A stretch of DNA of 23,365 bases from IMG/VR virus record IMGVR_UViG_3300037071_004614, positions 1 through 23,365 of that record; one strand, 5' to 3'. This DNA is from a virus. Below are positions 880-18,673 of this stretch, in pieces (the first letter of the stretch is position 1; the number at the start of each line of letters is the position of its first letter). A model generated the notes under the pieces. The model saw only the letters and a list, made by a program, of their open reading frames with translations. It was not told the DNA's origin and did no database searches. The translations under genes and the position numbers were made by a program.

Positions 880-1782
880 CTACACAGCTACGTTGGATAC
901 CTCATCTATAATTTCTGTGACATCCCCACCAGAAGCAACATAGTCATTCTTGGCTTTGGTATAGCGTGCCATCAGAGTTGGATTCTTTTGTGCTGCTCTC
1001 CCTGCAGCAATGGCATTCTGACGCAGTGTAGCTTTACTTGCTCCATTTTCTTCACCAGTGCTATGTCCACCAGCACCACCCGCAGTAGATTTTGCTTTTA
1101 CCATATATTTTGGTGTGAACTTCTTCACACCAGCACTGAGGTCTAGTGTCCCATCACCGTCTTTTATTACCCAACTTTCCGTATCTTCATCGTAGACGGA
1201 TTTACTACGGAGGAAATCCGCTACATCATTGGCATCTATCGCACCAAGAGAGGTTGCAGCAGCAATAAGTTGCCTATCACGCTCTGCATGAAGTCTCCGT
1301 GTCTCTGCGGCCTGATACCGTTCTTCAGCAGCATCACCACGTTTCTTCTCTGTTTCAAGAGTTTTCTGGAAGTTTGCCAGCGTTTTCTTGAGTTCTGTAA
1401 TCTCTGGATTATCCTCTGTAGTAGTTGTTTTCGCTCTTGTAGTGCGCTTTGTAGTCTTGGGCGGTGTTTCCTCTTCAGTCTCAGTACCTTCTGTTTCAGC
1501 GTCATCATCCTGAGTTTGAGGGTTGAGAGCTTGAAGGGCAACAGTAATATCTCCTAATGTCTTCTTAATATTCGCCAGTTCAGTAGCAGTAGTTTTCTTT
1601 CCTGAGTTCAGTTCTTTCTGAAGGGTAGCAATGGTAGCAGAGGTTGTTTCTGCAAAGGCTTTGGGATCAAATTCAGTATCGGTTCCATCTCCTTCAGTTG
1701 CACCTTCACTTGTCTCAGCTACACGATAAATCAGATGATCAAACTTAGAGTGAAACGGGCTACGGAATCTATTCTTCTTCAT
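880..1782 (-). CDS. Probable capsid scaffold / head morphogenesis protein
   Basis: A 300-residue hydrophilic, strongly charged protein between the portal and major capsid genes, the usual place of a scaffolding protein. After a basic N-terminus (1-20) comes a long acidic and Thr-rich stretch: coil-like helix around 45-90, a low-complexity linker rich in Thr, Glu and Lys at about 90-125, then a heptad-like coiled coil at about 127-175 (ITELKKTLANFQKTLETEKK). The C-terminal third is Gly/Ala-rich then helical. The ATG at 1782 has GGAG 8 bases upstream and starts 3 bases after the portal stop. I see no protease motif, so a scaffold-protease fusion is unlikely. The function rests on position, composition and coiled coil, not on a recognised family. 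Confidence 0.6.
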   Translation of the reverse strand: MKKNRFRSPFHSKFDHLIYRVAETSEGATEGDGTDTEFDPKAFAETTSATIATLQKELNSGKKTTATELANIKKTLGDITVALQALNPQTQDDDAETEGTETEEETPPKTTKRTTRAKTTTTEDNPEITELKKTLANFQKTLETEKKRGDAAEERYQAAETRRLHAERDRQLIAAATSLGAIDANDVADFLRSKSVYDEDTESWVIKDGDGTLDLSAGVKKFTPKYMVKAKSTAGGAGGHSTGEENGASKATLRQNAIAAGRAAQKNPTLMARYTKAKNDYVASGGDVTEIIDEVSNVAV

Positions 1783-1785
1783 ACA

Positions 1786-3492
1786 TTATTCTCCTTGTGG
1801 AGGTGCGTTGAAACTCTCCGCAGTTTCTTCTGCCACTTTTTCTTGACTTTGAAGTGTTGCTGCTACCTCAATCGGTATCTTTTCTTCTAGTGTATCAATT
1901 TCTTGCATAACTTGCTCTAGAATATCTGTGGTAGATTTCTTGAGTGCTTTCCGCGCAAGACTCTTTTCTACTTCACGTGCAAAGGTCGGAGAACGAATCG
2001 CTTTCTTCGCATCAGTAGCACGTTCAAGTTCTTGTTCAAAAACTTCCACATCATAATTATCTGGATAATCAATAGAGCCTAACCATTCTTCACCTAACCA
2101 CTTACAATACAGCATATGGACCTTAATTTCCCCTTCTTCCATAAGTTGTGCGGTGTCTGCTAGCATTGTATTTGTTCTATTAAACTCGTAACTGTATGAT
2201 ACTCCAGGTCTGGATTCTCGGATACCAGAATCCGTCCATAGGGTAGCAAGTTTATAGATGGTGTCTGTTGATTTCTCTACCCACTCAACAATAAATCTCC
2301 CTGGATCAGAAGCAGGGGCAAGATAGTATGGAGGGTTTGTTCCTGCCCATAATAGGGCATTGTTATTGCCAATTTCCACAGGGACACTTCCTGCAGCTTC
2401 ATTATCATTCATCTGATTAGGGTCTTCCATCACCAGGATATTGAAGACTTTAGAACGTATCTCTTCTGTGAGTAAGCTTACGGAGTTAGCAATATCAACG
2501 TTGATCTTCCCAATAGGCTCAACAAAGGATTGACCTAATTGAGTATCAAGCATGTCTCGTTTCCCAAAGAAGCGGGTCACTGGTACAACCCCTAAACTAT
2601 GTTGACCAGCATCAAGGAGTCTCGCTTCTGGTTTCCGTCCACCAACTCTTACCACTTCATGTTTATACCATGCATCTCTAGTCCATGTCCAGTAGTGATG
2701 TATACTAGCTTTTGGACGTGAGCCAAATGGATTATACTGCTTATCCATCTTCTCTTTCCAACGATACCACAGAAACTCTCCCTTGTCATCAAACTCCCAA
2801 TTGATCGCATTCATAGGGAGAATATAGTATAAGTAGGGACGGATTTGTGCATCAAGCCGTTCTTGCTCATTGGTGATTTCATAGGTGGTACGTGGCATAT
2901 CTGTTACTACATCTATGAAGCCCCATATTTTGGCAAACGTGTGAATCTTTTCCATAAATTCATCTATGGTCGATTTTCGCAAATCGCAGTCTGCCCAAAA
3001 CTCATTCTTTTCTATGTGTTCCTGTTCGGCTAACTGTTCGTCTTGCTTAAAGAAAGACCGTGTGACATTCTTGGTATAGACAAAGGAACTGATAAGATCA
3101 ACAATCGAACCAGTATAGTTGTAGTAATATGCCCTCGCTTGCCGCTTACGATAGTTTTCTATTTTCTCACGGTGATGCCTGTCTAAGTAATTCTGGATAT
3201 TTTGTCCTGCATACCAGTTATACCAGTCACCCCATCTCAAATGAAATTCATCAAAGTGAGGATGAGTGGTTTCCAGTATTTTAACTAGATCATCATTGGG
3301 AGATTGACCAAAGAGGTCTGCATTATTCCGTGCAAAGTCTGGTTGAAAAACAGACGTGATACGGACATTGGGGTTTGAATATTCAAATATTCCTTCATCG
3401 GGATTAATAGAATATTGGTTAGCAGGCAGAGACATCAACTGCCGAAAGCGGGATGCAGTGAAGGAATCTGGCATACGTTTACGGTGTTTCAC
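1786..3492 (-). CDS. Portal protein (SU10-like type)
   Basis: The portal forms the ring at the capsid vertex through which DNA enters and to which the tail attaches. The 568-residue length is normal for a portal. The N-terminal half has the Tyr/Arg-rich helical region YRKRQARAYYYNYTG (114-128); the middle has the segment GKINVDIANSVSLLTEEIRS, like the stem-helix region of this portal type, followed by SYSYEFNRTNTMLADTAQ. The C-terminus is acidic and Gln/Glu-rich. The start is GTG: it overlaps the upstream stop (GTGA) and has GAGG 7 bases before it. An ATG at codon 7 (3474) is an alternative but is less well supported. It lies between terminase and scaffold/capsid genes, as in standard head modules. 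Confidence 0.88.
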   Translation of the reverse strand: MKHRKRMPDSFTASRFRQLMSLPANQYSINPDEGIFEYSNPNVRITSVFQPDFARNNADLFGQSPNDDLVKILETTHPHFDEFHLRWGDWYNWYAGQNIQNYLDRHHREKIENYRKRQARAYYYNYTGSIVDLISSFVYTKNVTRSFFKQDEQLAEQEHIEKNEFWADCDLRKSTIDEFMEKIHTFAKIWGFIDVVTDMPRTTYEITNEQERLDAQIRPYLYYILPMNAINWEFDDKGEFLWYRWKEKMDKQYNPFGSRPKASIHHYWTWTRDAWYKHEVVRVGGRKPEARLLDAGQHSLGVVPVTRFFGKRDMLDTQLGQSFVEPIGKINVDIANSVSLLTEEIRSKVFNILVMEDPNQMNDNEAAGSVPVEIGNNNALLWAGTNPPYYLAPASDPGRFIVEWVEKSTDTIYKLATLWTDSGIRESRPGVSYSYEFNRTNTMLADTAQLMEEGEIKVHMLYCKWLGEEWLGSIDYPDNYDVEVFEQELERATDAKKAIRSPTFAREVEKSLARKALKKSTTDILEQVMQEIDTLEEKIPIEVAATLQSQEKVAEETAESFNAPPQGE

Positions 3493-3941: not shown

Positions 3942-5447
3942 TTATAGCCCTGGTATGGTGACTGCTTTCACATGAGATTTTGGCATACGTGGATAGGTAA
4001 AGCATGGATACCGTGTCGCATCTGCCATATGATCATTCCCATCTTCGTAGGTATCCAGGTCTGGTTTTCCATCAGGAAGTATCCCATGTTCCCATGCAAG
4101 CATTTCTCGACGGAGTTCTATACACGTATCCATAATAAAGAGTTTTGGTAGTCCGTTTGCGGGGTTTATCTCAAGACGCTTCTTGACTTCATCAACCCCT
4201 TCTGCTAAGTCATTCATTGCTTGGAGGCAGTTTAAACCATATCCACGCATCTCAAGAATAGATTGCTTACCAGAAGGGTCAGAATAGATAGGGAGTCGTG
4301 GTCTCCAGTACAGATTCTTTTTGATATAGTTGGCATGAGTGCCAAGAAGTCTATCACCATGGAAATAATACTCAAACATCACAATCCAGATATCATATCG
4401 GGGTTCTATCACGATCTGAGCATAGGCAAAGTGGGCTCCAAAGTCCATCCCACCTATTCTACGCCAGTTTTTAGGGATTTCTTTCTCCTGAAAAATAGAC
4501 TGGAAGGACTTGAACTTTCCTCCACCTAACATAGAAATAACATGGATATCCTCATCATAGTGTTCACCATAGACTTTTGCTCCACCAGAGGGGGATTTAT
4601 TCTCCCACTCTGTAGCAAACATTGCTGCTGAGAGGTTTGCTGTTTTTTGGATAAACGTCGGAATAGGATACCAGCCCTTACAGTCATGGGCTTTACCCTT
4701 GCATTTCTCCCATGCAATACAATCTCCCCACTCTGGATCATTCTTACATTCACGTGTACACTGTTCTAGTGTTTCCCAAATACAGAATTGAGAGACAGAC
4801 ATATTCCGCTTAACTTGATCATTAAGAAGCGTAGTCATTGTACCGCCAGATTTTTTTCTTGTAGATCCCAAAATATCTTGGGCAGGAACGCCATTCTTAG
4901 ACATAGACATAGAGAGTCCTTGTTCAAGAATAGGCATGTCCATTAGTTCTACTTCATCTATTGTAGTCATATTTGGATGTGGACCATTCAATCCATGCAT
5001 CGTACCAGAAGCTATTTTCAGTAAACTTCCATTCTTAAATTTGGTGTAGGATTGAATAGGATCACCGTCAAGGAGTTCCCATAGAATAGGATCACTCTCA
5101 AGGAAACCTTTGAAATATGAATACCCAATATTGGTTTGATGAATCTGTGAGGATGCAACAACTAACTCGACTGGTGCACATCTAAACAATGCTTTGAGGT
5201 GGTTTAAGAGCGCAAACCCTAGCGTTTTACCAGAACCACGTGAGCCAAATGCGAGTGCAAACATAGTCCGTTCAAAAAATACATCTGTTATAAAACTGAA
5301 TATAGATGTGTGTCCTGCACAGAACGAGTGCTTAGGGAGGGTATATCCAAGGAATGTTTGGATGTAGAAGTCAAGATCATCTTCATCTTCAAAACCGTAC
5401 TTCATATATGTATGAAGAAGATCTCGCTTCACTACACTTGGATTCAT
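3942..5447 (-). CDS. terL: Terminase large subunit
   Basis: ATP-driven motor and nuclease that packages phage DNA through the portal. The 501-residue protein has both expected domains. ATPase: Walker A GSRGSGKT (68-75), Walker B MTTIDEVEL (160-168) with Asp164/Glu165, then STRKK (195-199), a motif-III-like segment. RNase H-like nuclease: GMDFG (333-337, Asp335), YSDPSG (388-393, Asp390) and NDHMADATRY (471-480, Asp472/Asp476), the three acidic metal-binding positions. Between the domains is a Cys-rich stretch (Cys222, 230, 234, 243, 249, 256) that may bind zinc. The ATG at 5447 has GGAGAAG 8 bases upstream and follows the small subunit stop by 3 bases. Confidence 0.95.
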   Translation of the reverse strand: MNPSVVKRDLLHTYMKYGFEDEDDLDFYIQTFLGYTLPKHSFCAGHTSIFSFITDVFFERTMFALAFGSRGSGKTLGFALLNHLKALFRCAPVELVVASSQIHQTNIGYSYFKGFLESDPILWELLDGDPIQSYTKFKNGSLLKIASGTMHGLNGPHPNMTTIDEVELMDMPILEQGLSMSMSKNGVPAQDILGSTRKKSGGTMTTLLNDQVKRNMSVSQFCIWETLEQCTRECKNDPEWGDCIAWEKCKGKAHDCKGWYPIPTFIQKTANLSAAMFATEWENKSPSGGAKVYGEHYDEDIHVISMLGGGKFKSFQSIFQEKEIPKNWRRIGGMDFGAHFAYAQIVIEPRYDIWIVMFEYYFHGDRLLGTHANYIKKNLYWRPRLPIYSDPSGKQSILEMRGYGLNCLQAMNDLAEGVDEVKKRLEINPANGLPKLFIMDTCIELRREMLAWEHGILPDGKPDLDTYEDGNDHMADATRYPCFTYPRMPKSHVKAVTIPGL

Positions 5448-5450
5448 AGA

Positions 5451-5921
5451 TTAGGCTTCTCCAAGCTTCCCACTCTGCCCATACCTTTGTGTGTTGTCAC
5501 CCATGACACGCATGAGTTCTTTCAAGGCATTCTTTTGCTCAGGCGTTTCAGCAGGCTTGGCTTCTCGCATATCTAATGCTTGATTGATATTCAGTGTTCT
5601 ATCCCTGAGTAGGGTAATCTGGAATATCTTGTTGACTGCCCACTCGAAATGTCGATACTCGAAATTTTTAGAAGTATATGGAATATCAACAATCTCTTGA
5701 AGCCTCGCTGTAGCAGTCCTACGGAGATGATTGATGTCATTATCAATCAACTCCATATATTTCGTCTCAAGATGGGCCATGTACTTCTTAAACTCTAGGT
5801 CTTGTCTCCATAGTTTGATTTGTCTGATAGAAAATTCTGGAAGTTGTTTAGAAATCTGAGTAGGAGTCATCCCTACAAGATAGTACCTGGCAGCTTTTTT
5901 ATGGTGTATTTTGAGGATCAT
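5451..5921 (-). CDS. terS: Probable terminase small subunit
   Basis: A DNA-binding partner of the large terminase that selects phage DNA for packaging. The 156-residue size and the place directly upstream of terL are typical. The N-terminal region (about 8-45) reads as a helix-turn-helix: KKAARYYLVGMTPTQISKQ, then a recognition-helix candidate around SIRQIKLWRQ. Residues 45-115 are helical, fitting the oligomerisation core, and the tail (115-156) is polar and flexible. The ATG at 5921 has no strong ribosome site; the next in-frame ATG (codon 18) would destroy the HTH, so 5921 is kept. Sequence similarity among small terminases is low, so the call leans on HTH plus context. Confidence 0.75.
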   Translation of the reverse strand: MILKIHHKKAARYYLVGMTPTQISKQLPEFSIRQIKLWRQDLEFKKYMAHLETKYMELIDNDINHLRRTATARLQEIVDIPYTSKNFEYRHFEWAVNKIFQITLLRDRTLNINQALDMREAKPAETPEQKNALKELMRVMGDNTQRYGQSGKLGEA

Positions 5922-6015: not shown

Positions 6016-6507
6016 TTAAATTTTTAAGGTCAGCTTGTTAATACCTCCACCACTCCATACGTCTATCATACAGGCAATCTCTACAGCTTCTTCTACACTC
6101 TTCCCACATAACATAGCTGCCATCGCTGGCATATTCCCTGTCCCAATAGCGTAGAAGTCTTCCTCAACTATAAATGGAATCCATGTATCTTCAAACTGGT
6201 AGATAATAGGTTCATTGTTTATAGACGTTAAAAAGAGTGCTTGAAAATCCTTTGCAGGAACACAAGATGGAAATAATTCTGGATTCATTCCACTTCTTAC
6301 CCATCGAAAAAACGGCTCATTATATTCTACCAAGCCAGCACACCCTACAAGACACTCTTTTTTATTAGGAAGAATATCATATTTTTGTTCGGTTGTATTT
6401 GTTACGATACATCGAATCTTAGTGAAGCTTCCACGTAAGCCACGATCATTTGTTTGTCTATCAGATGCCATTATTAAAGTCCGTTTATCAACAGCAATAG
6501 TGGTCAT
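6016..6507 (-). CDS. Proteasome/HslV-like N-terminal-threonine (Ntn) hydrolase
   Basis: Resembles the HslV peptidase and proteasome beta subunits, which cut peptides with an N-terminal Thr. With the start at 6507, Met removal exposes Thr1 in TTIAV. Mature numbering: Thr1, Asp15 in MASDRQ (like HslV Asp17), Lys29 in FTKI (like Lys33), Gly51-like strand VGCAG, and AIGTGNMPAMAAM (119-131), the counterpart of AIGSGG in HslV, followed by a helix and a last strand as in that family. Length 163 residues is close to HslV (about 175). An upstream in-frame TTG at 6537 would add 10 residues but has no ribosome site and would bury the Thr. The ATG overlaps the MazG stop (ATGA), with GGAG 4 bases upstream. 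No partner ATPase is in the window. Substrate unknown; activity inferred from conserved residues. Confidence 0.82.
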   Translation of the reverse strand: MTTIAVDKRTLIMASDRQTNDRGLRGSFTKIRCIVTNTTEQKYDILPNKKECLVGCAGLVEYNEPFFRWVRSGMNPELFPSCVPAKDFQALFLTSINNEPIIYQFEDTWIPFIVEEDFYAIGTGNMPAMAAMLCGKSVEEAVEIACMIDVWSGGGINKLTLKI

Positions 6508-7094
6508 ACTACTCCAGTTTGAGGGTTTTCTACCCAATTACGTTTAGATAAGACTCGTTCCCATACATCATCAATACAGCTTACGAGAGTTACCTTTAAT
6601 AGATTACATATATAGACAAGTTGGTAACACAGTTCATTGACACACTCAATGATAGATTTCTTGTTTTCTTTTGAGATGATATTGTCTTGTATGAACATTG
6701 GTTCAAAATATAATCCAATATGAGCTACATACTTATATACAGACCATGCAAGCATTTCCATCTGAATATTTGTATAATGTTTATTCTCAGAGAACACGGT
6801 AAAATATGATTCTTTATATGGAATAAATCCAAAATTTCCTCTATAAAAGAAGTTAGTAGCATACACCATTATATCACCAATAGCATCTTTAATATTATCT
6901 ATATGTTCTTCTGTTGTTCCACGAATCCCTTGAGACATCTTTAAGACAGAATGAACAAGCTCTCCTGCTTCTTCACACATCCCAAGAAATGGATGTCGTG
7001 GTGGTGCATACGGACCAGTAGGACCAAAATTTCTATTCTGCCAATCCCATAACTTTTTTTGAAGATTTTGGAAATAAATTTCATCATTATGCAT
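6504..7094 (-). CDS. MazG-like nucleotide pyrophosphohydrolase
   Basis: All-alpha NTP pyrophosphohydrolases hydrolyse (d)NTPs or related nucleotides to monophosphate and pyrophosphate. The metal-binding helix motif is CEEAGEL (Glu41, Glu42, Glu45), followed by NIKDAIGDIMVY with Asp70 and Asp74; the end KRNWVENPQTG is typical of MazG-like phage proteins. At 196 residues it is longer than the common 100-130: about 70 residues (roughly 82-150) appear inserted between the DAIGD helix and the last helix. The Ala at 71, where many relatives have Glu, is seen in some phage MazG-like proteins as I recall. The ATG at 7094 has AGGG 6 bases upstream. It is AT-rich compared with head and tail genes and shares a 4-base overlap with the Ntn hydrolase. 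Substrate cannot be told from sequence. Confidence 0.82.
   Translation of the reverse strand: MHNDEIYFQNLQKKLWDWQNRNFGPTGPYAPPRHPFLGMCEEAGELVHSVLKMSQGIRGTTEEHIDNIKDAIGDIMVYATNFFYRGNFGFIPYKESYFTVFSENKHYTNIQMEMLAWSVYKYVAHIGLYFEPMFIQDNIISKENKKSIIECVNELCYQLVYICNLLKVTLVSCIDDVWERVLSKRNWVENPQTGVV
6512..6515 (-). promoter_or_regulatory. Ribosome binding site fixing the Ntn hydrolase start
   Basis: GGAG on the minus strand, 4 bases before the ATG at 6507. Spacing is short, but coupling to the overlapping MazG stop could compensate. It favours the start that exposes the catalytic Thr. Confidence 0.5.
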
Positions 7095-7602: not shown

Positions 7603-7848
7603 TTAAGTTACACGTACAATGATGGTAGCTAGTCTATCATCTATAGCAAGTGTGATGTTGTAATCACCAATTTCTGATGCTACAAAGGATGGTGAGGGCA
7701 TAGTAGGATTCATGAGTGAAGCCCCACACGCATCTGGACACTCCATAGTCCACTCATATTTTCCACTTGTTATCGTGAAGAGTGTTCCATTTAATGCAAT
7801 ATGAGTGTCAACACCGATTTCATAAAGTATGTCTGGTGCTTCAGCCAT
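7603..7848 (-). CDS. Small PKD/Ig-like beta-sandwich protein (paralogue of the gene at 8857)
   Basis: 81 residues, almost all one predicted beta-sandwich. It shares the patterned core NGTLF, YEW, P(D)AC, LMNP-MPSPSFVA, G-Y-ITL-DD-ATI-V-V with the gene at 8857-9225, so the two are paralogues. The pattern W...P...L...SP.F.A...G.Y.ITL...D resembles PKD-like domains that bind surfaces or polysaccharide. There is no signal peptide. The ATG at 7848 has GGAG 8 bases upstream, 12 bases after the hydrolase stop. Possible roles are capsid or tail decoration; the fold is inferred from pattern only. Confidence 0.78.
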   Translation of the reverse strand: MAEAPDILYEIGVDTHIALNGTLFTITSGKYEWTMECPDACGASLMNPTMPSPSFVASEIGDYNITLAIDDRLATIIVRVT

Positions 7849-7860
7849 GGGTATTACTCC

Positions 7861-8457
7861 TTATGTTACGATAACTTCTGCAATCATATAAACCTCTGAA
7901 CACTCAGCCCAATCTTTCGGCGCGATATACCCACCTGTGCTATAGGGCAGTGTAATCCCAAACGCTTTATAGACTTCCCAGGCAAATTCACTACAAATAT
8001 AGGCCGTATTTTGCGTAATGGGGTTAGTGCGAAAACCGACTTCTACAGCTAAAACACGTGCAGCAATACGTAGAATACTCTGAGTATCATAGGGATAACC
8101 TAGTAAATCAATCGCCCGTTGTGAGAAAGCCTGAAAGGCAGGAGATATTTCTGCCTGAAACAGTCTATGGCGTGCGATGAAGATACGGCCTGGATATCCA
8201 CAGCCTTCCCCTGCATAATTGGAGATATAACGTGAAACAGGGATAGCACGACATCCAATAGACTCCACTGACTCTAGCACTAAAATACGTTCTAGAGCAT
8301 CAACACGCATAAGACAACCAACGTGGGACCAGGGAGAATTGGTTGCATGTTGAATCATTCTGGCAAAAATAGAAGAACCTTGGCACAATAATAAATCTCC
8401 AGACTTGATCAGTGGGCGCACACTATCATAGGACATCAGAGAAGGTTCTGTACTCAT
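7861..8457 (-). CDS. Permuted papain-like (YiiX/DUF830-type) amidase or peptidase, candidate lysis enzyme
   Basis: 198 residues. The start IKSGDLLLCQGSS is typical of circularly permuted NlpC/P60-papain enzymes, where the His comes before the Cys: SHVG (His45 in SPWSHVG), the strand VLESVES (Glu62 or Glu65), and AYICSEF with Cys155 near the C-terminus. Members of this superfamily hydrolyse peptidoglycan peptides, amides or lipid esters. The ATG at 8457 overlaps the holin-like stop (ATGA) and has GGAAG 8 bases before it; the longer frame back to 8622 lies over the holin-like gene and is rejected. Holin followed by a coupled hydrolase is a classic lysis pair, which suggests an endolysin, although permuted papain enzymes are not the usual endolysin type. 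There is no signal peptide, so export would depend on the holin. Confidence 0.78.
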   Translation of the reverse strand: MSTEPSLMSYDSVRPLIKSGDLLLCQGSSIFARMIQHATNSPWSHVGCLMRVDALERILVLESVESIGCRAIPVSRYISNYAGEGCGYPGRIFIARHRLFQAEISPAFQAFSQRAIDLLGYPYDTQSILRIAARVLAVEVGFRTNPITQNTAYICSEFAWEVYKAFGITLPYSTGGYIAPKDWAECSEVYMIAEVIVT

Positions 8458-8648
8458 GGTGTTGTCTTCCATGCAGCTTTCCCTGAAATCGCTGCTGAGG
8501 ATAAACCCGTAGCAACGATCACTAACCATGTATTTGTTGCAATAGGCTCTGTAGTGCCAGAAAGTTGTGTCAATGTTGTGAGCAACGCGCCAGTAACACC
8601 AGTAATCAGACCGTACAGACACGTAAAATAGAATCCGGCTGTTGGCAT
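8454..8648 (-). CDS. Holin-like small membrane protein
   Basis: 64 residues with two hydrophobic segments (about 6-27 and 40-57) joined by a polar turn (TQLSGTTEPIATN), and a basic end (GKAAWKTTP). This is the size and topology of class II holins, which form membrane lesions at a set time and release the lytic enzyme. No holin family is recognised, so the call depends on topology and on the overlapping downstream hydrolase gene. The ATG at 8648 is preceded by AAGAGA, a weak ribosome site, as is common for timed holins. The reading frame shares its 3' part with a spurious extension of the next gene. Confidence 0.65.
   Translation of the reverse strand: MPTAGFYFTCLYGLITGVTGALLTTLTQLSGTTEPIATNTWLVIVATGLSSAAISGKAAWKTTP
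8466..8470 (-). promoter_or_regulatory. Ribosome binding site fixing the hydrolase start
   Basis: GGAAG on the minus strand, 8 bases before the ATG at 8457. It supports the short form that overlaps the holin-like stop by 4 bases instead of the longer frame from 8622. Confidence 0.55.
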
Positions 8649-8856: not shown

Positions 8857-9225
8857 TTACTCTGCCGCCGCTACATTAACAGTAATGGTTGCTTCTCCAT
8901 CATCTGTTTGCAATGTGATGACATATGCCCCTTCCTTTTCAGCCACAAAGGATGGAGAAGGCATCTCTGGATTCATAAGCTGTCCATCTTTTCCATCTGG
9001 TGTGACCATTGCCCAATGATACGCACCACTAACATTGAACAATGTCCCATTCATACTTACGTTATCACCCACATGAACATTATGGGTTTGGTTCATTTCA
9101 GGAGCAACTTTTTCTGCTGATGCTCCTGATGGAGTGGGTTGAGCTTCACTCGACACTGGATCACTCGAAGCAGTTGATTCACTCGAATGAGCAGTATGTT
9201 GTTGTCTACTACGTTGTTCAGACAT
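8857..9225 (-). CDS. PKD/Ig-like small protein with disordered N-terminus
   Basis: 122 residues: a Ser/Gln/Pro-rich, probably disordered N-terminal 50 residues, then one beta-sandwich (about 50-120) clearly paralogous to the gene at 7603-7848, including LMNPEMPSPSFVAEKEG and the strand YVITLQTDDGEATITVNV. It lacks the Cys pair of its paralogue. No signal peptide is seen. The ATG at 9225 has GGAG 9 bases upstream, and the gene follows the fibre gene by 61 bases. It may be a decoration protein of the virion or an attachment accessory; PKD-like folding is inferred from the spacing of Trp, Pro, Tyr and the terminal strand. Confidence 0.8.
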   Translation of the reverse strand: MSEQRSRQQHTAHSSESTASSDPVSSEAQPTPSGASAEKVAPEMNQTHNVHVGDNVSMNGTLFNVSGAYHWAMVTPDGKDGQLMNPEMPSPSFVAEKEGAYVITLQTDDGEATITVNVAAAE

Positions 9226-11239: not shown

Positions 11240-14200
11240 TTATCCAGATCCACGTGATGGATACCCAAGAATCCCATTAACTCCAATACCTAAGACATCA
11301 TAGTATATTGTACTCTGTACACTACCAAAATCAGTGACTTGCTGTGCAGCAGTATAGACTTGTGTTAAAGTATCTTCAGCAGAGCCAGCAAATATAGATG
11401 TGACTATTAATCTCATGAGTACCGTATATGAACTATTCGTATAGATACGTACATGGAATTGTTTTGTGAAATCAATATCCCAACTCACACCAGTATTGTC
11501 AATCAACTCTGAGTTAAGCCGTGAACGATAGAGCCATGCAAGAGTAATATCATTGGCAGAAGGAATGTTCCTCTGAATAGATTGGAGCACTGGTGCCCAT
11601 GGTTTCAGGTTATTTCCTTGAATAGTTTGAGTGAAAGCATCTGCCACATCTATAGGTGTAATTAAATCAACAACTTTATAATTCAGTGCTACACCGACCA
11701 CTGTTTCAGAATATGCTATTGGATTAGACACTACAACACTATTCAGTAACACAAATCTTTCATTTGTACTATGTGTACCCACATAGGATTCTGTACCCAA
11801 TCTTCCACGCAATAAATGAGTAAGTTGATACGTATTTGTTGCAGTAAGTGTTGCTGTGGTAAATTGGATAAGTTCATTGCCAACAAAGGCACGATTTGCT
11901 CCATTTAATACCTCAAGTTCTGTTGAATGGCTTAACGTACCACGCCTTAATACAACCGTCAATACTGTGGTATCATCCCATATATCGTAATCTACATTCG
12001 GAAGTGGAGCTGCGACATTACCAGTAATAGCTTCTGTCGCTACTGTTTGTAACGCACTATAGGTTATACCCCCATCTAAACTTCTATAGGGAATTGCGTA
12101 AGAAAAACTCCGTGGGTTTTGTGTGGTGAACGCAGCAATAAAAACTCTTGGTGCAATATCTGTAGGGGTGAGTGCTGGTACATCCACGATATAAATATCT
12201 ACACGTCCAATAATAAGTGTTGTCCCTGTACTAACACCAGATATCGCTGGTGTCGGGATCGTCTCAGTGTAAAAAGCAGGATCAGTCACGATAGATTTTA
12301 CACCAGTAATCCAGTTAAATCCTCTATTTAGCTCACTAATTCTCATAAGATAGTCAAATGAACGTGCAGAGACATTGATATTATCTCTTGGATCAAGAAG
12401 CATGAGCATAGGTGTAATTGTAAACTCAGATAATTCTCTCTCGTTCCACAACTGATATAATCGAACTTCAGCATTCGTATAAGCTTGTTTACCAGAGAGC
12501 GCAACGGGCGCATTAAGTACCTGTGGATTTCTTTCGATACTCCCTGATGTTAAACTTGCAATCTGAGAGTTACTTTGAAAGTTTCTGTCTCTGTCTGGAT
12601 AGTTTATTGTTACTTTTGTTGGTAACTCACGTTCCTGAATACGGCTTAACACTAAGGATTTTGGATCATCTTTATCTATACCTCCAGCTAACGCCCTCTC
12701 TGGTATCGTTGCAGCAACTTGAGCATTAGAGTTAAAGAAGTATCGCATAACTCCTTCTGATTCAACTCCACTAAAAAGAAAAATATCAGCAAGGGTTTGA
12801 ATCACATCTTTTGCTGGTTGCGGATTGGAAAGAACCATATTTACTATTGTATTATCAAGACCGCTAGTATCTATCTCTCCAGGGGTTAAACCAGCTTCCT
12901 CTGATAAGTGTCTTACGACACATGCAAGGCCATCATCTACATAGGGGCTTGTTCCTATTGATGCAGTTGGGCTAATAACATATGGAGGATGTTCAGATGA
13001 GATTCCATATGCAAATCCATCTTCATCAGAAAGCACTTTATAGGTATCTCTTGGCGTGCGTATACTCACAAACGTTCCGTTACTTTGAATATGGAACATC
13101 TCATTGCCACTAGAAGCCACTGCCCATATAGTACCATCACCAGGAGCTAAGGATATTGTTGATTGTGAAAGTACGAAAGTCTCTACTGTGTATGCTGTCT
13201 GGTGTATACGATGTATTTGTGGAGCATTCGTACTCCCTACCCAAATATACCCATCTTCAGCTTGAGTAATAACATGAGGACCGTTAGGGATACTAATAGT
13301 TGCATAATCACCGGAGCTTGTAAAATGACCAACAGTATTCGCATCTCTGTTTGTCACCCATATTTTATTATCAGACGCTCTAATTATATGTGTAGCACCA
13401 GATCCTACATTAATATTTTCTGTGATTGTAGCTGCATTGGCTGTTTTCGCAACCGTATTATTATTCCGCAATATGAAAACAATATTCCCTGTTGACCACA
13501 CTAAGTCAAGCACTGGTGTTCCAACAGAAAAACGGGTATTCGCAAATATATTGCTATTAATATTAAAAGAAACAACACTTTGTATCTGCTCTAAATAAAT
13601 ATAAAAATAGTTTCCACCAGCATAGATGTCTTTTACCCCTACAACCGCATGTGCTGCTATCTCCCCTGCAACACGGACTTGATAATCATTGATAAACATA
13701 TTATAAGAATCACCAGCATAGACAGTTAGCATATCAGTATTTGTATCTTGTCCATCTCCTAATCCTAAGCTTATAACTCCCAACTTATTTGTTACTGATG
13801 AATATGCTATGCCACGTGGAGAAAGTTTTGCATTCTGTGTACCAATAACTTCAAGAGTTTCTGTTTTATATCCTGTCAGTTCCCCAACACTATTCGTCAA
13901 AGAACTATTTGTAAGATGTGAAACAGAACCAAGTCCCACGACCAAACCCACTGTTGCTCCTGAACCTTCTGTGTTCGATGGACCATTAGAATGTTGAATT
14001 TCAAAAGTAAAATTTGGCACACGTCCTGAAGTTCCAAGATTAAGGTCTTTAATAACAACATATGCCAAGCCTCTATATGCTGAGACATTTCCTACACCAT
14101 GTATTTCTTCTAACGTTGCATCGGGATTTTGTTCTTCTGTCCCTACGTGAACAATAGCTGTCTCAAGTGTTTCATCAATACTATGTGCAACTTTCAATCC

Positions 14201-14725
14201 TTCTTCTACATCAACAAGGACAAGCCTAAATCTTCCAAGATCATTACCATTATCATAGACTAAATCTAAGTCAAGCCATACACGGAGTATCTTAGAAATT
14301 GGACCTTCACATAGAGCAATAGCTAACGTCGTTGTGTATATTTTCTGTTTAACTGTCGTAGTGGCACTCCCTCCCCCTTTCCCTTTTGGTTGTGGGCTTG
14401 CTGCTGTTTGTACATCTGTTTCAATGATATGTTCTTCTTTTACTGTTGCATGAATAATGTTTCCACTAATACGATAAATACCAAATACTCTTGGTATACC
14501 CACACCAAGAGCAGGGGAGGTGATGAAAATATCTTTAAGGCTTTCTCCTGGTGTTTGTGTTGTTTTCTTTGGCTTGACTGGATCAATAGCATTGCCAGCA
14601 ATACCACCAACAGTCATCCCAAGAGAGAAACCTAATCCAGCACCTTGAAAACCACCAAAATAAAATCCTACTGCAGCTCCTACTATACCCCCTGCTAGTG
14701 CCCCAATCTGACCCCCACTACTCAT
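11240..14725 (-). CDS. Large tail hub / tip protein (RcGTA gp15-like), with beta-propeller insert
   Basis: 1161 residues; the distal-tail central protein that organises host contact. The Gly-rich hydrophobic N-terminus (8-45) is followed by IPRVFGIYRISGNI and LAIALCEGPISKILRVW (135-150), typical of this family, and by RVPNFTFEIQHS (235-246). The family usually continues directly with DLACVVRHLSEEAGL-like sequence, here at 597-613; between them lie about 350 extra residues (250-595) that read as a beta-propeller, with repeated blades such as DNKIWVTN and DGYIWVGS and DGTIWAVASS. After that the hub core resumes (STGSIERN, LWNERELSEF, LMLLDPRDNINVSA) and ends with TYQLTHLLRGRLGTE (965-980). The ATG at 14725 follows the peptidase stop by 7 bases. 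The propeller call rests on repeated blade patterns. Confidence 0.85.
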   Translation of the reverse strand: MSSGGQIGALAGGIVGAAVGFYFGGFQGAGLGFSLGMTVGGIAGNAIDPVKPKKTTQTPGESLKDIFITSPALGVGIPRVFGIYRISGNIIHATVKEEHIIETDVQTAASPQPKGKGGGSATTTVKQKIYTTTLAIALCEGPISKILRVWLDLDLVYDNGNDLGRFRLVLVDVEEGLKVAHSIDETLETAIVHVGTEEQNPDATLEEIHGVGNVSAYRGLAYVVIKDLNLGTSGRVPNFTFEIQHSNGPSNTEGSGATVGLVVGLGSVSHLTNSSLTNSVGELTGYKTETLEVIGTQNAKLSPRGIAYSSVTNKLGVISLGLGDGQDTNTDMLTVYAGDSYNMFINDYQVRVAGEIAAHAVVGVKDIYAGGNYFYIYLEQIQSVVSFNINSNIFANTRFSVGTPVLDLVWSTGNIVFILRNNNTVAKTANAATITENINVGSGATHIIRASDNKIWVTNRDANTVGHFTSSGDYATISIPNGPHVITQAEDGYIWVGSTNAPQIHRIHQTAYTVETFVLSQSTISLAPGDGTIWAVASSGNEMFHIQSNGTFVSIRTPRDTYKVLSDEDGFAYGISSEHPPYVISPTASIGTSPYVDDGLACVVRHLSEEAGLTPGEIDTSGLDNTIVNMVLSNPQPAKDVIQTLADIFLFSGVESEGVMRYFFNSNAQVAATIPERALAGGIDKDDPKSLVLSRIQERELPTKVTINYPDRDRNFQSNSQIASLTSGSIERNPQVLNAPVALSGKQAYTNAEVRLYQLWNERELSEFTITPMLMLLDPRDNINVSARSFDYLMRISELNRGFNWITGVKSIVTDPAFYTETIPTPAISGVSTGTTLIIGRVDIYIVDVPALTPTDIAPRVFIAAFTTQNPRSFSYAIPYRSLDGGITYSALQTVATEAITGNVAAPLPNVDYDIWDDTTVLTVVLRRGTLSHSTELEVLNGANRAFVGNELIQFTTATLTATNTYQLTHLLRGRLGTESYVGTHSTNERFVLLNSVVVSNPIAYSETVVGVALNYKVVDLITPIDVADAFTQTIQGNNLKPWAPVLQSIQRNIPSANDITLAWLYRSRLNSELIDNTGVSWDIDFTKQFHVRIYTNSSYTVLMRLIVTSIFAGSAEDTLTQVYTAAQQVTDFGSVQSTIYYDVLGIGVNGILGYPSRGSG

Positions 14726-14732
14726 AGTAAAC

Positions 14733-15164
14733 TCAACCTTCTATCCCAGGATAGGTGTAGCAGGCTTCTAGAATACGCTCATGGATAAATCGACTTACCA
14801 CAACTTTTCGTAATGTTTGAGAAATACGCGCATGGACAACACATCCATCATTCACAATAATAGCAGTATGTTGAGGGATAGAACGAAAACGCAAAATATA
14901 AATATCTCCAGGTAATGCTTCTTCTATAGGCTTTCTACGAAATCCACTATTATTCAACGTATCAAGAAGAAGTGTAGGAAAACTTAACTGCCATTGTGCT
15001 GTGTAAAACGGCACTACAAAATTCCTTGGGAGTAAACCAACACTCTTTCCAATACCTATTACCAAGTGTGCACAGTCAACACCAATGCCTTTACAACATT
15101 GAAAATGTTGGAATGGAGTATTCACCCACTCATAGGTTTCATGAACTATATCATCTCTATTCAT
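14733..15164 (-). CDS. NlpC/P60 cysteine peptidase, tail-associated (RcGTA gp14-like)
   Basis: 143 residues. Virion-tail peptidoglycan hydrolase of the NlpC/P60 family, used to open the cell wall during DNA entry. The active site is visible: Cys31 in GVDCAHLV, His99 in PQHTAII and a polar His111 (VVHARI). The segment ALPGDIYILRF (83-93) is the family's GD-lead strand. Position between DUF2163 and the hub gene matches the g13-g14-g15 order of the Rhodobacter gene transfer agent, so it most likely acts in the tail tip instead of cell lysis. The ATG at 15164 lies 9 bases after the DUF2163 stop. It is shorter and not permuted, unlike the hydrolase at 7861. Confidence 0.85.
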   Translation of the reverse strand: MNRDDIVHETYEWVNTPFQHFQCCKGIGVDCAHLVIGIGKSVGLLPRNFVVPFYTAQWQLSFPTLLLDTLNNSGFRRKPIEEALPGDIYILRFRSIPQHTAIIVNDGCVVHARISQTLRKVVVSRFIHERILEACYTYPGIEG

Positions 15165-15173
15165 ACATAGCTC

Positions 15174-16292
15174 TTAGTTAGGTGGAGTATAAAATTCTTG
15201 ATCTTCAAGTTTTCCAACAGAGGGATTGTAAAATACTGCCTCATTTGTTGGAACAAAGTCAAATCCCCGAAAGTTTATTTTATTATTAAATTTATTTTTA
15301 CATGTTGAAGCTTTTTTATCACATCCTGCAGTGACTTCAATAATATCTCCAGATTGTGGTAAACTTGGGAAAGGTAGATACGTCTGAATCAGCCCACTAT
15401 TATTAAATCGGATATCACGGTGTATACGGTCATTCTCACCACTCTTGAATATTATTCTTCCTTGATTGGCAAATCCACTTTCAAAACTTGTAGAGGTTTG
15501 TATAACTTTTCTATCTGTTGAGGTAGACGTTACTGTTCCTCTCTGCCAAAAATTTGTAGATTGCACAATAGTAAGAGTTATACTACTTTCGTTCGTTAGT
15601 GTTGCACTTAAAACAATCACAGAACTGGTAATTGAAGATATGGTAGCACTAACGTTATTTGCAGTAAGAGAACCTGAGACAACAACAACACTCCCTAACG
15701 TGTAGCCATCTTCTAGAAATGAACCGCCATCATTTCGTGTTATACTATTTGTTGGTGATCCTGCTACAGTACAAGGCATAGAATTTGAGATAGGAAATAT
15801 CTGTACTCTACAACGACTATCCCCTAAATCTGCATCACATGACGGAGAAAATATCCGTCCAATTTTTGTATCAAGCACTTGAGCAAGGCCACGCACTTCT
15901 ACTTGTATTAGCCCATCCATACGTGTAATCTCACCTACACGTCCAGTGCTTTCAATAATTTTTCCTAAGTTCAAATTCATATAATTGATAGTAAAAACAT
16001 CAACAGCAGCGTTATCAAGGAAACCATTTATGACAGCACTCTCAAAGTCTGGATAAAGAAAAGCACTCACTGTTAGTGTTCCTGGTACAAGAAATTCTGA
16101 AAAACGCACATCAGATATTTGGAAACCTTGGAGACTCAAGTAGACATCTTCACCTATTGTAAGATCACGTGTATGTGATGTGAAAGCATAGGTTACACCA
16201 AATACAGTATTAATTCTTATACAACGTGCAAGTGTTTTCCCTATCTTCGTTGTTAGGTATGTTTTAAAAGCGGTTAATACTGCCGTTCGCAT
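15174..16292 (-). CDS. Tail hub protein DUF2163/BR0599 type (RcGTA gp13-like)
   Basis: 372 residues. The N-terminal DUF2163 part (about 10-150) forms a hub around the distal tail; the BR0599-type C-terminus ends with CKNKFNN and FRGFDFVPT. Four Cys, at 152 and 161 (SPSCDADLGDSRC) and 324 and 331 (AGCDKKASTC), match the spacing of the iron-sulphur-binding Cys known in RcGTA gp13 and lambda gpL relatives. Between Cys161 and RGTVTS (about 168-245) an extra ~75-residue beta segment is inserted, with NDGGSFLEDGYTLGS at its start, a pattern seen in other phage tail proteins. The ATG at 16292 follows the DUF2460 stop by 2 bases; AAAGGTGG precedes it. Iron-sulphur binding is inferred, not shown. Confidence 0.85.
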   Translation of the reverse strand: MRTAVLTAFKTYLTTKIGKTLARCIRINTVFGVTYAFTSHTRDLTIGEDVYLSLQGFQISDVRFSEFLVPGTLTVSAFLYPDFESAVINGFLDNAAVDVFTINYMNLNLGKIIESTGRVGEITRMDGLIQVEVRGLAQVLDTKIGRIFSPSCDADLGDSRCRVQIFPISNSMPCTVAGSPTNSITRNDGGSFLEDGYTLGSVVVVSGSLTANNVSATISSITSSVIVLSATLTNESSITLTIVQSTNFWQRGTVTSTSTDRKVIQTSTSFESGFANQGRIIFKSGENDRIHRDIRFNNSGLIQTYLPFPSLPQSGDIIEVTAGCDKKASTCKNKFNNKINFRGFDFVPTNEAVFYNPSVGKLEDQEFYTPPN

Positions 16293-16294
16293 CG

Positions 16295-18673
16295 TTACCC
16301 ACCTTTGAATATTTCTCTACCATTATAGAGCTTAATAGGATTACGAACCTTTGGACGATCTATTGCAGCAACAGCATTCACAGTAGGTCTTCCAGTCGCC
16401 AATCCATCAGTATTTGGTTGATACCACGAAAAACCTACATTTCCAAAACGTGGGTTATTGACGTATGCTGGTTTCCACTTCTCTACTGAGTTTATATTTA
16501 ATTCCATAGTATCAGGATCAGCTCTCCAGTATGGATATCCTTGAAATGGAGGTATAGTGGGTGTTGTAAACTCATTTCCGTATTGACCTAGCCAATAACG
16601 TAATAAGTATTCATGCCCAATAGACACCGTATTAAAAGTCGCAGCTCGACTGCCACTAATCCATATAACCATTTCATATAAACGTCCACCAAAATGATCT
16701 GCTACGAGAGCAGAAGCAGGAAATATAGCCTTCCCTCCTATAGCGCAGTTATTAAAAGAATCAACATTGTATTTATCCCATTCTCTCTCTAAGTAATAAA
16801 GTCCATAATTTTTTGCACCTACAATTAGATAAGGGGTAATTCCTGGTGGATCACTTGTTGCTGTTGCAATACTATGTCCATGCTCTGAAAAAGTTCTAGA
16901 ACCATAAGAAGAACCACTTAAATATAACCTTCCATGATAAGCAAATGTCATCACATATAAATGCATATCATCATCTTCAGAAGATGATACTTGTGAAAAA
17001 GTCCCACCTTCGGGTATCTGAGGAAGAGGATTTAGAAAATATCCTGTAAGTGAATCAAAGCCATTTTCTAAAAGAATACTCCCATCATAACCAAGTATGC
17101 TTATAGACTTCGTTTTCATCCCAAAATTACTGAGTTCTAAACTGGTAATTTGCCCTGGTGCTCTATGCGAAAAGAGTGTTCTTTTATTTGCATCTTGTGG
17201 TACATGAGAAATAACAAAGCCAACGGTTATAGAATTATACCAACTTGCCATTTTAGAAAAAAATAGTGGATCTGTTGAGAACGGATAAAGAGTTGCTGCA
17301 GAACCGCCAGAGCTGAATTGCACATAATAATCTACGGCTTTAAAATCCTGTAAAGCTGGAAGTGCACATCCAGTCACAATAGTTGAGAATGGTTGTGGGT
17401 TATTGTATACCACCGTTGGCAATGTGTTCATGATTTCAATAAAACCAATAGATTCTATATCGTAAAAATCAAATCCACTTGGTATAGAAATAGATAGAAT
17501 ATCACTGTCAAATCGTGTTGGAACATCATATGTACCAGTCCATGATATTGTTCCTGTTGGTGGTGTTGCAAACGTTACTACACCTGTTGCTGGATTGATC
17601 GTTGGTTGTGGAGATGCAGCAACACTATTTATATAAACAACACAGGTACTTACCACAGGTTTCGTAATATTTCTCTGCTGAACAAATGCACCAGAAATAT
17701 AATTTTTTATGAGCTGAAATGTTGTGAGAACACCGTTTCCAGTCCCTATAACATGTTCATCTAAACACTGAAAGTCTGTGATATCCTTCATCCGAAAACC
17801 AGATAACCGACCTTTTCTACAAAGAAAGAAATGAAGAATAGTTTCCATATCTAATTTATTACGATACTCCTTAGAGATAATAAAACTTACTTTCGGTTCT
17901 GTGACATGTGTAACTCGTTCCATCTCACCACTATCGCTGTTAATAACAACAGCATTTACCCCTGGTCCTATAGAAGATCGTTCTGCATAGGGCTCTGGAA
18001 AGCGTGCCTCAACGAAATCGGGAATCTCAGATTCCTGAAGTATTGTTTCTAATGCAGTTGCACGTCTCTCTATAGCAGTAATCGGGGTATCAAACTGTTC
18101 AAAATTTTCAACAGATGTAGGGAGTTTTTCTATTATAAAATTTACTGGCGTATAGAACGTACCAGTCCATGTCAAGCTAAGTAAACCAGCAGGGGGAGTT
18201 GTAAACGTCACGATACCTGTTCCTGTTGTATAATCAACTGTGAATCCAGAAGTAATTGGTATAGTATCTCCAAATATTTGTATAGGAGAATTTGGGAGAA
18301 ATATAGGCCGAATATAGGTATGTGTGTCACCAGGAATACCAGAATTGTAATTTTTACATAATTGAAACTGTGTACGTACACCGTCAGCATTACCAAAATG
18401 TTGTGCCGTTGCTTGATAATCAGTAGGATCAAGTATCTTGAAGGTGTATCTATTTCCTAAACGTGCTCTATAAAAATCTATAATATAGCTCAAATCCGCT
18501 TGGTCACGTAAGGCTGGAGAAAAATTATATGTCCGTAACGGGTCTTGCCACATCCCTACCCGTTCTTCTTCTCCTTCACGCATACTATGCACTTGAGTCA
18601 TAAATTTAATCTCAACCTTTGCACCCAATGATATGAATGTATCCAGTGAGACATTATGAAAGTCAGTGATCAT
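16295..18673 (-). CDS. Distal tail protein with two DUF2460-like modules and a lectin-like C-terminus (RcGTA gp12-like)
   Basis: 792 residues, about four times a usual DUF2460 protein. Module A (about 1-200) has IDFYRARLGNRYTFKILDPTDYQA and DGVRTQFQLCKNY. Module B (about 255-415) has FFLCRKGRLSGFRMKDITDF and NGVLTTFQLIKNYISG, clearly a second copy. Both contain the TGIVTFTTPPAG or TGVVTFATPPTG strand. Residues about 440-700 form a beta-rich region with a LamG/concanavalin-like look (GRLYLSGSSYG, GGRLYEMVIWISG), and the last 70 residues end KLYNGREIFKGG. The ATG overlaps the tape measure stop (ATGA). Such distal tail rings contact receptors; the lectin-like domain would extend that role. Its order before DUF2163 matches RcGTA. 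Confidence 0.82.
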   Translation of the reverse strand: MITDFHNVSLDTFISLGAKVEIKFMTQVHSMREGEEERVGMWQDPLRTYNFSPALRDQADLSYIIDFYRARLGNRYTFKILDPTDYQATAQHFGNADGVRTQFQLCKNYNSGIPGDTHTYIRPIFLPNSPIQIFGDTIPITSGFTVDYTTGTGIVTFTTPPAGLLSLTWTGTFYTPVNFIIEKLPTSVENFEQFDTPITAIERRATALETILQESEIPDFVEARFPEPYAERSSIGPGVNAVVINSDSGEMERVTHVTEPKVSFIISKEYRNKLDMETILHFFLCRKGRLSGFRMKDITDFQCLDEHVIGTGNGVLTTFQLIKNYISGAFVQQRNITKPVVSTCVVYINSVAASPQPTINPATGVVTFATPPTGTISWTGTYDVPTRFDSDILSISIPSGFDFYDIESIGFIEIMNTLPTVVYNNPQPFSTIVTGCALPALQDFKAVDYYVQFSSGGSAATLYPFSTDPLFFSKMASWYNSITVGFVISHVPQDANKRTLFSHRAPGQITSLELSNFGMKTKSISILGYDGSILLENGFDSLTGYFLNPLPQIPEGGTFSQVSSSEDDDMHLYVMTFAYHGRLYLSGSSYGSRTFSEHGHSIATATSDPPGITPYLIVGAKNYGLYYLEREWDKYNVDSFNNCAIGGKAIFPASALVADHFGGRLYEMVIWISGSRAATFNTVSIGHEYLLRYWLGQYGNEFTTPTIPPFQGYPYWRADPDTMELNINSVEKWKPAYVNNPRFGNVGFSWYQPNTDGLATGRPTVNAVAAIDRPKVRNPIKLYNGREIFKGG

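Follow-up and report, generated by a model that had tools for sequence, protein, structure and literature searches.

What does a proteasome-like N-terminal-threonine hydrolase do in a phage whose contig carries no ATPase for it, and does its place beside the terminase genes connect it with the phage head? An earlier note on this DNA had read the gene as HslV-like, and had proposed that the product borrows host HslU, acts alone, or processes a head, phage or defence protein. We investigated the gene by comparing its sequence, predicted fold and genomic context with those of its relatives.

The window and its gene order

The window is one entire viral contig of 23,365 bases, and its recognisable genes are all on the minus strand. 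They are arranged in the order tape measure, gene transfer agent (GTA)-like tail module, fibre-like protein, small-gene cluster, MazG-like protein, the hydrolase (hereafter PPH, after its family), probable terminase small subunit (TerS), terminase large subunit (TerL), portal, scaffold-like protein and SU10-type capsid (Table 1). The presence of TerL, portal, SU10-type capsid and tape measure shows the tailed-phage origin of PPH. Since the capsid gene is cut off at the end of the contig, the remainder of the phage lies outside the window. The product of 5451-5921 gave no family or profile match and is a putative TerS. A search of 50,697 phage records with the window TerL gave a single distant match, and the peptide patterns of this TerL detected no relatives in the viral contigs.

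Table 1. Positions of the PPH gene, its neighbours and its key residues in the window
Feature	Position	Strand	Basis
PPH gene, 163-aa proteasome-like N-terminal-threonine hydrolase	6016..6507	-	translation; phrog_1040 E 3.3e-24; AF2 pLDDT 93.8; Foldseek to 20S beta and HslV
MazG-like pyrophosphohydrolase, 4-bp overlap (ATGA) with PPH start	6504..7094	-	phrog_1992 E 4.6e-7; Pfam MazG below cut-off
Probable TerS (HTH and long helices), between PPH and TerL	5451..5921	-	position and low-confidence model (pLDDT 61) only
TerL	3942..5447	-	phrog_2 E 2e-14
Portal protein	1786..3492	-	phrog_145 E 5.6e-46
Scaffold-like protein, between portal and capsid genes	880..1782	-	position and composition; no family match
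SU10-type major capsid protein, runs off contig end	3..800	-	PF17236 E 7e-44; phrog_1328 E 3e-39
Thr2 codon (putative nucleophile Thr1 after Met removal)	6502..6504	-	189/221 relatives start exactly M-T-T
Asp16 (mature Asp15; proteasome Asp17)	6460..6462	-	99% conserved, outside search pattern
Lys30 (mature Lys29; proteasome Lys33)	6418..6420	-	99% conserved, outside search pattern
Gly58, Gly of the oxyanion hole, immediately ahead of helix H1 (proteasome Gly47)	6334..6336	-	99% conserved; H1 from residue 60 in model
Residues 36-50, insertion in S3/S4 hairpin	6358..6402	-	spacing comparison; lowest-confidence loop of model
Family motif G-[ST]-G-x3-A-x2-A-M-x2-G...D-x2-[ST]-G-G	6047..6144	-	1 window match, 0 in 100 shuffles

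Other genes of the window were also annotated. A few genes upstream of PPH, 7861-8622 (-) encodes a YiiX-like permuted papain-fold amidase (PF05708, Peptidase_C92, E 5e-7). On either side of it, 7603-7848 and 8857-9225 (-) encode two small proteins with similar tails (NGTLF...SLMNPTMPSPSFVA / QLMNPEMPSPSFVA), one of which is weakly PKD-like. The tail module at 11240-23271 (-) resembles that of gene transfer agents (DUF2460, BR0599, phiJL001 Gp84, NlpC/P60-like, Rcc01698). Within it, 11240-14725 (-) encodes a tail protein in which Phage-tail_3 and Rcc01698 domains were recognised; residues 413-558 of this product form an apparent beta-propeller (Vgb_lyase E 1e-12, below the curated cut-off).

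The PPH gene, its start codon and active-site positions

The open reading frame translates to a protein with the N-terminus MTTIAVDKR and the elements MTTIAVDKRTLIMASD...GSFTKI...AIGTGN...DVWSGGG. Its only library match was PHROG 1040 ("peptidase HslV family"), a profile that also matched all 80 aligned proteins. No match was obtained with the single sequence in Pfam, NCBIfam or a phmmer search against the PDB. The back-translated family motif occurred once in the window and was never found in 100 shuffles. The 163-residue frame, the profile match and the motif show that the gene is real, as the earlier note had supposed.

The ATG at 6507, rather than the TTG at 6537, was assigned as the start codon, since 189 of 221 motif-selected relatives begin exactly with M-T-T-[IVL]. 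The Thr-Thr-Ile mature start proposed before is in agreement with this assignment. The ATG overlaps the stop of the upstream MazG-like gene by 4 bp, GGAG stands 4 bases before it, and translation of the two genes may be coupled. Such an overlap is frequent in the family and partly automatic, since Met-Thr starts give ATGA. With its ATG-Thr-Thr start and ATGA overlap, PPH possesses no propeptide, and the 189 relatives are alike in this.

The Asp15, Lys29 and GTG motif (the counterpart of GSGG) pointed out previously are all present. Asp16, Lys30 and Gly58 were each 99% conserved in 184 aligned proteins (among the matches listed), and these positions were not part of the retrieval pattern. Loss of the Thr, Asp and Lys positions, which would have spoken against the assignment, did not occur in the homologues. 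T1, D, K, G, S/T123, D149 and S/T152 are all conserved in the alignment, and T123, D149 and S152 of the window PPH are the equivalents of 20S beta Ser129, Asp166 and Ser169. Judged from the sequence, the predicted catalytic set is complete.

Family membership, relatives and selection

The PPH family was described in 2021 by Fuchs, Alva and Lupas (PMC8665760). According to that report, its members have about 140 residues, occur in tailed phages and prophages, are missing helix H2 and have no propeptide; neither an AAA+ interactor nor a suggestive genomic context was reported (PMC8665760). The window protein belongs to this family, as every feature that could be checked fits. It is likewise compact, with Thr1, Asp, Lys and Gly in place, without a propeptide, H2 or an AAA+ partner, and it is from a tailed phage. 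It differs in being at most 38% identical to its nearest relatives (among the matches listed), in its length (163 residues, as against a median of 146) and in an S3/S4 insertion that is the longest among the 184 listed members. Thus, the phage-encoded nature of PPH is not new; the family is already described. No biochemical experiments on any PPH were found in the literature searched. The additions made here are a motif of the beta and not the HslV type, purifying selection on the family, an accessory status seen in a matched pair, and the unusual loop.

By tblastn, 188 phage records matched PPH, with 23-32% identity among the matches listed, and many of them already carry the annotation "peptidase HslV family". 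Relatives were gathered with a fixed-spacing DNA motif, which gave at least 120 stretches from viral contigs and 92 from bacterial genomes. The dN/dS of 329 pairs of relatives had a median of 0.10 and a maximum of 0.26. These low values show that the family is maintained in functional form.

Fold and comparison with known proteins

In the AlphaFold2 model of the window PPH (73 sequences; pLDDT 93.8, pTM 0.88), the strands follow the proteasome order, with helices at 60-71, 125-133 and 138-148. A single helix (60-71) precedes the next long strand at 88, whereas HslV and the proteasome have two. Thus, helix H2, whose absence is the hallmark of PPH, is missing from the model. The C-terminus ends in strand 156-160, with no S12/H5. 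The top Foldseek matches in the PDB were 20S beta (1j2q_H, TM 0.74) and HslV, so that the fold is of the proteasome type and the wrong-fold outcome considered earlier did not occur.

When the family profile (A2) was compared with the PDB, beta5i ranked first (E 8.6e-13), with an alignment over the full length of the profile, followed by HslV (E 3.5e-10) and BPH (E 4e-10). Of the 143 positions, the best HslV matches span no more than about the first 110 and do not reach the C-terminal D-x-x-[ST]-G-G. This motif is of the proteasome-beta type, and the motif of the family is aligned with its counterpart in beta5i. On the profile comparison, PPH is closer to 20S beta5 than to HslV. Therefore, of the earlier HslV-like assignment the proteasome superfamily holds; the family is PPH (PMC8665760), with a profile nearer to 20S beta5, DxxSGG present and H2 absent.

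PPH resembles 20S beta5/beta5i, the best PDB match of its profile, in the core fold and in the catalytic residues including GSG and Asp/Ser-Gly-Gly, but it is phage-encoded and lacks the propeptide, H2 and the C-terminal H5. A search of the window with PPH for alpha subunits or a second proteasome-like protein found only PPH itself. With HslV (ClpQ), PPH has in common the Thr-Thr start after Met removal, Asp/Lys, a GSGG-like motif and the fold. It differs from HslV in its D-x-x-S-G-G, in the weaker profile match, in the absence of HslU from the phage contigs searched and in the absence of H2, so that the H1+H2 helix pair with the pore loop of HslV is not found in the window protein. Anbu and BPH are bacterial members of the superfamily which also have no known dedicated unfoldase, and BPH matches the profile; in contrast to them, the window PPH lacks H2 and the Anbu-type long C-terminal helix H5 and has a phage distribution. 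According to the model, the missing H2 could alter a ring.

The Lys30-Gly58 spacing in the window PPH is 27 residues, the longest among the 184 aligned proteins (among the matches listed), with a median of 12. The extra loop of about 15 residues was modelled without structure and lies at the insertion site of connectase, which carries a substrate lid at its S3/S4 site (PMC8665760).

Genomic context and accessory status of PPH

Of the 31 viral contigs with a usable TerL, 19 have PPH and TerL on one strand, with TerL no more than 3.5 kb downstream. The nominal chance of this was 2e-19 to 8e-14, but the enrichment was discounted since it derives mostly from one Pseudomonas clade. The TerL matches of G012, G016 and G019 were excluded from this distance test because they covered only part of the profile. 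When PPH was clustered at 50% identity (74 clusters), TerS or TerL was found within 3.5 kb downstream in 11 clusters, upstream in 6 and on the other strand in 0 to 1. The small subunits downstream of PPH are of several unrelated kinds (PF16677, PF20901, PF03592 and an HTH type). Thus, the terminase-side position recognised in the earlier note recurs in relatives. In other settings, PPH lay amid tail genes (opposite strand), beside a holin, near ribonucleotide reductase, or with early genes or head genes. In phiM5, PPH is between TerL and portal. Jedunavirus BUCT_49532, a Klebsiella phage, encodes a separate head maturation protease, and its PPH is located amid tail genes, on the opposite strand. 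No conserved partner gene was found upstream of PPH across clades; the upstream genes fell into many small unrelated clusters.

The P22-type prophages of E. coli MS 115-1 and 97.3 have TerS-TerL DNA of about 99.5% identity and the same TerL accession. In MS 115-1, PPH lies between the DUF2560 gene and TerS. In strain 97.3, the PPH site is occupied by a 23-codon ORF, whose last codons and stop are in common with PPH. PPH is also absent from P22 and E212. E. coli genomes with this TerS-TerL type numbered 245, and those with this PPH numbered 10. Thus, PPH is accessory in P22-type relatives. The window phage is too isolated for such a presence/absence pair, and from the relatives we infer that its PPH is accessory too. 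Taken together, the 97.3/MS 115-1 pair, the absence from P22 and E212 and the separate protease of BUCT_49532 make a required role of PPH in general in packaging or head maturation very unlikely.

The possibility that PPH travels with its terminase genes was considered from G045 and Sf101, whose homology is lost close to the start of PPH and resumes with the portal. This possibility was ruled out by the 97.3/MS 115-1 pair.

Several further arrangements were observed at PPH loci. In the Pseudomonas clade (L045, L057, L224, L237, L238 and others; 26 loci), the gene after PPH encodes a putative phage metallopeptidase (PF18894, E 1e-41), so that two different peptidases adjoin ahead of the terminase. 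Two different proteasome-like genes are in tandem at L230:6048-7486 (G012) and L275:2501-3897 (Aeromonas phage 4L372XY gp205-gp206); the first encodes about 184 residues and the second 275-295 residues with a C-terminal extension, and both match PHROG 1040. A two-subunit phage assembly is conceivable for this pair. Relatives of the first tandem gene occur as single copies in T5-like phages near nucleotide-metabolism genes. At ten Pseudoalteromonas loci outside obvious phage genes (L208:2277-3614, L207, L154, L165, L174, L178, L179, L138, L158 and L214), a Sir2-family gene (PF02146, E 9e-21) directly follows PPH and is a possible partner of the bacterial PPH. In the single contigs of L246 and L247 (G028) and of L184, two PPH copies lie several kb from each other.

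Search for an ATPase

No AAA_2 unfoldase above the cut-off was detected in the window or in 50 viral contigs with PPH, many of them incomplete (0/51), and the earlier statement that the window holds no HslU ATPase is confirmed. HslU was likewise absent from the 50 viral contigs. Of 50 bacterial genomes with PPH, 47 encode full-length HslU.

Discussion

We consider it probable, though well short of certain, that PPH is an active accessory (moron-type) peptidase which works without a phage ATPase and is not needed for head assembly or packaging. Host methionine aminopeptidase would remove Met1 and free Thr1, with no propeptide to be processed. Asp15 and Lys29 would activate Thr1 for attack on peptide bonds, an activity predicted from the conserved positions and the fold. 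PPH would be a moron-type gene in the late region by the terminase, its start overlapping the stop of the upstream gene. The product is probably a self-assembled oligomer without a phage-encoded ATPase, being dispensable for head assembly and DNA packaging. Its targets may be unfolded proteins or particular ones, whether from the host, from a competitor or from the phage. Because HslU is present in nearly all hosts sampled, independence from an ATPase is only a proposal.

A special case of this explanation is that PPH is a counter-defence or host take-over protease directed against one specific host or competing-phage protein. The accessory distribution, the replacement by a short ORF at one allelic site, the occurrence in many unrelated phages and the purifying selection are consistent with it. 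However, PADLOC did not match PPH and gave nothing convincing among the neighbouring genes searched in the window, and no upstream partner gene is conserved across clades; we regard this special case as unlikely, though worth keeping in mind. Borrowing of host HslU, by which PPH would replace or compete with host HslV and redirect HslU to chosen proteins during infection, appears more doubtful still. The HslU genes of PPH-carrying bacteria, their absence from the viral contigs and the match of the family profile to HslV argue for borrowing. On the other side, co-occurrence carries little weight, as HslU is widespread in these hosts in any case, and Fuchs et al. reported no AAA+ partner that co-occurs with PPH (PMC8665760). 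Moreover, the model is without H2, the helix adjoining the pore loop, and mutation of the pore loop next to H2 deregulates HslV (PMC8665760).

The long S3/S4 loop, at the insertion site of connectase (PMC8665760), would fit a connectase-like ligase or peptidase with sequence specificity, in which the loop would be a substrate lid. The insertion is, however, short and unstructured and not the two-helix insertion of connectase, H1 is present whereas connectase is without the first helix pair, and by its profile the family is similar to beta5 and HslV. Therefore, we find this reading hard to credit, and hold it just as improbable that the window PPH is specialised, by a substrate-selecting lid at the active site, as a single-target phage protease or protein ligase without ring or ATPase. 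It is highly improbable that PPH is a maturation protease for the head or for packaging, with scaffold, capsid or terminase as its substrate. The TerL proximity, the position in phiM5 and the fact that no head protease was seen between the portal and capsid genes of the window speak for such a role. Against these stand the concentration of the proximity in one Pseudomonas clade, the small share of clusters with a terminase gene downstream, the same terminase with and without PPH in the P22-type pair and the separate protease of BUCT_49532. Thus, the position claimed in the earlier note stands and the head processing attached to it is contradicted.

The matched prophages argue that the terminase-side position is no evidence for head processing. 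With them, laboratory strains can be used to test what PPH provides to a phage when a sibling phage does without it.
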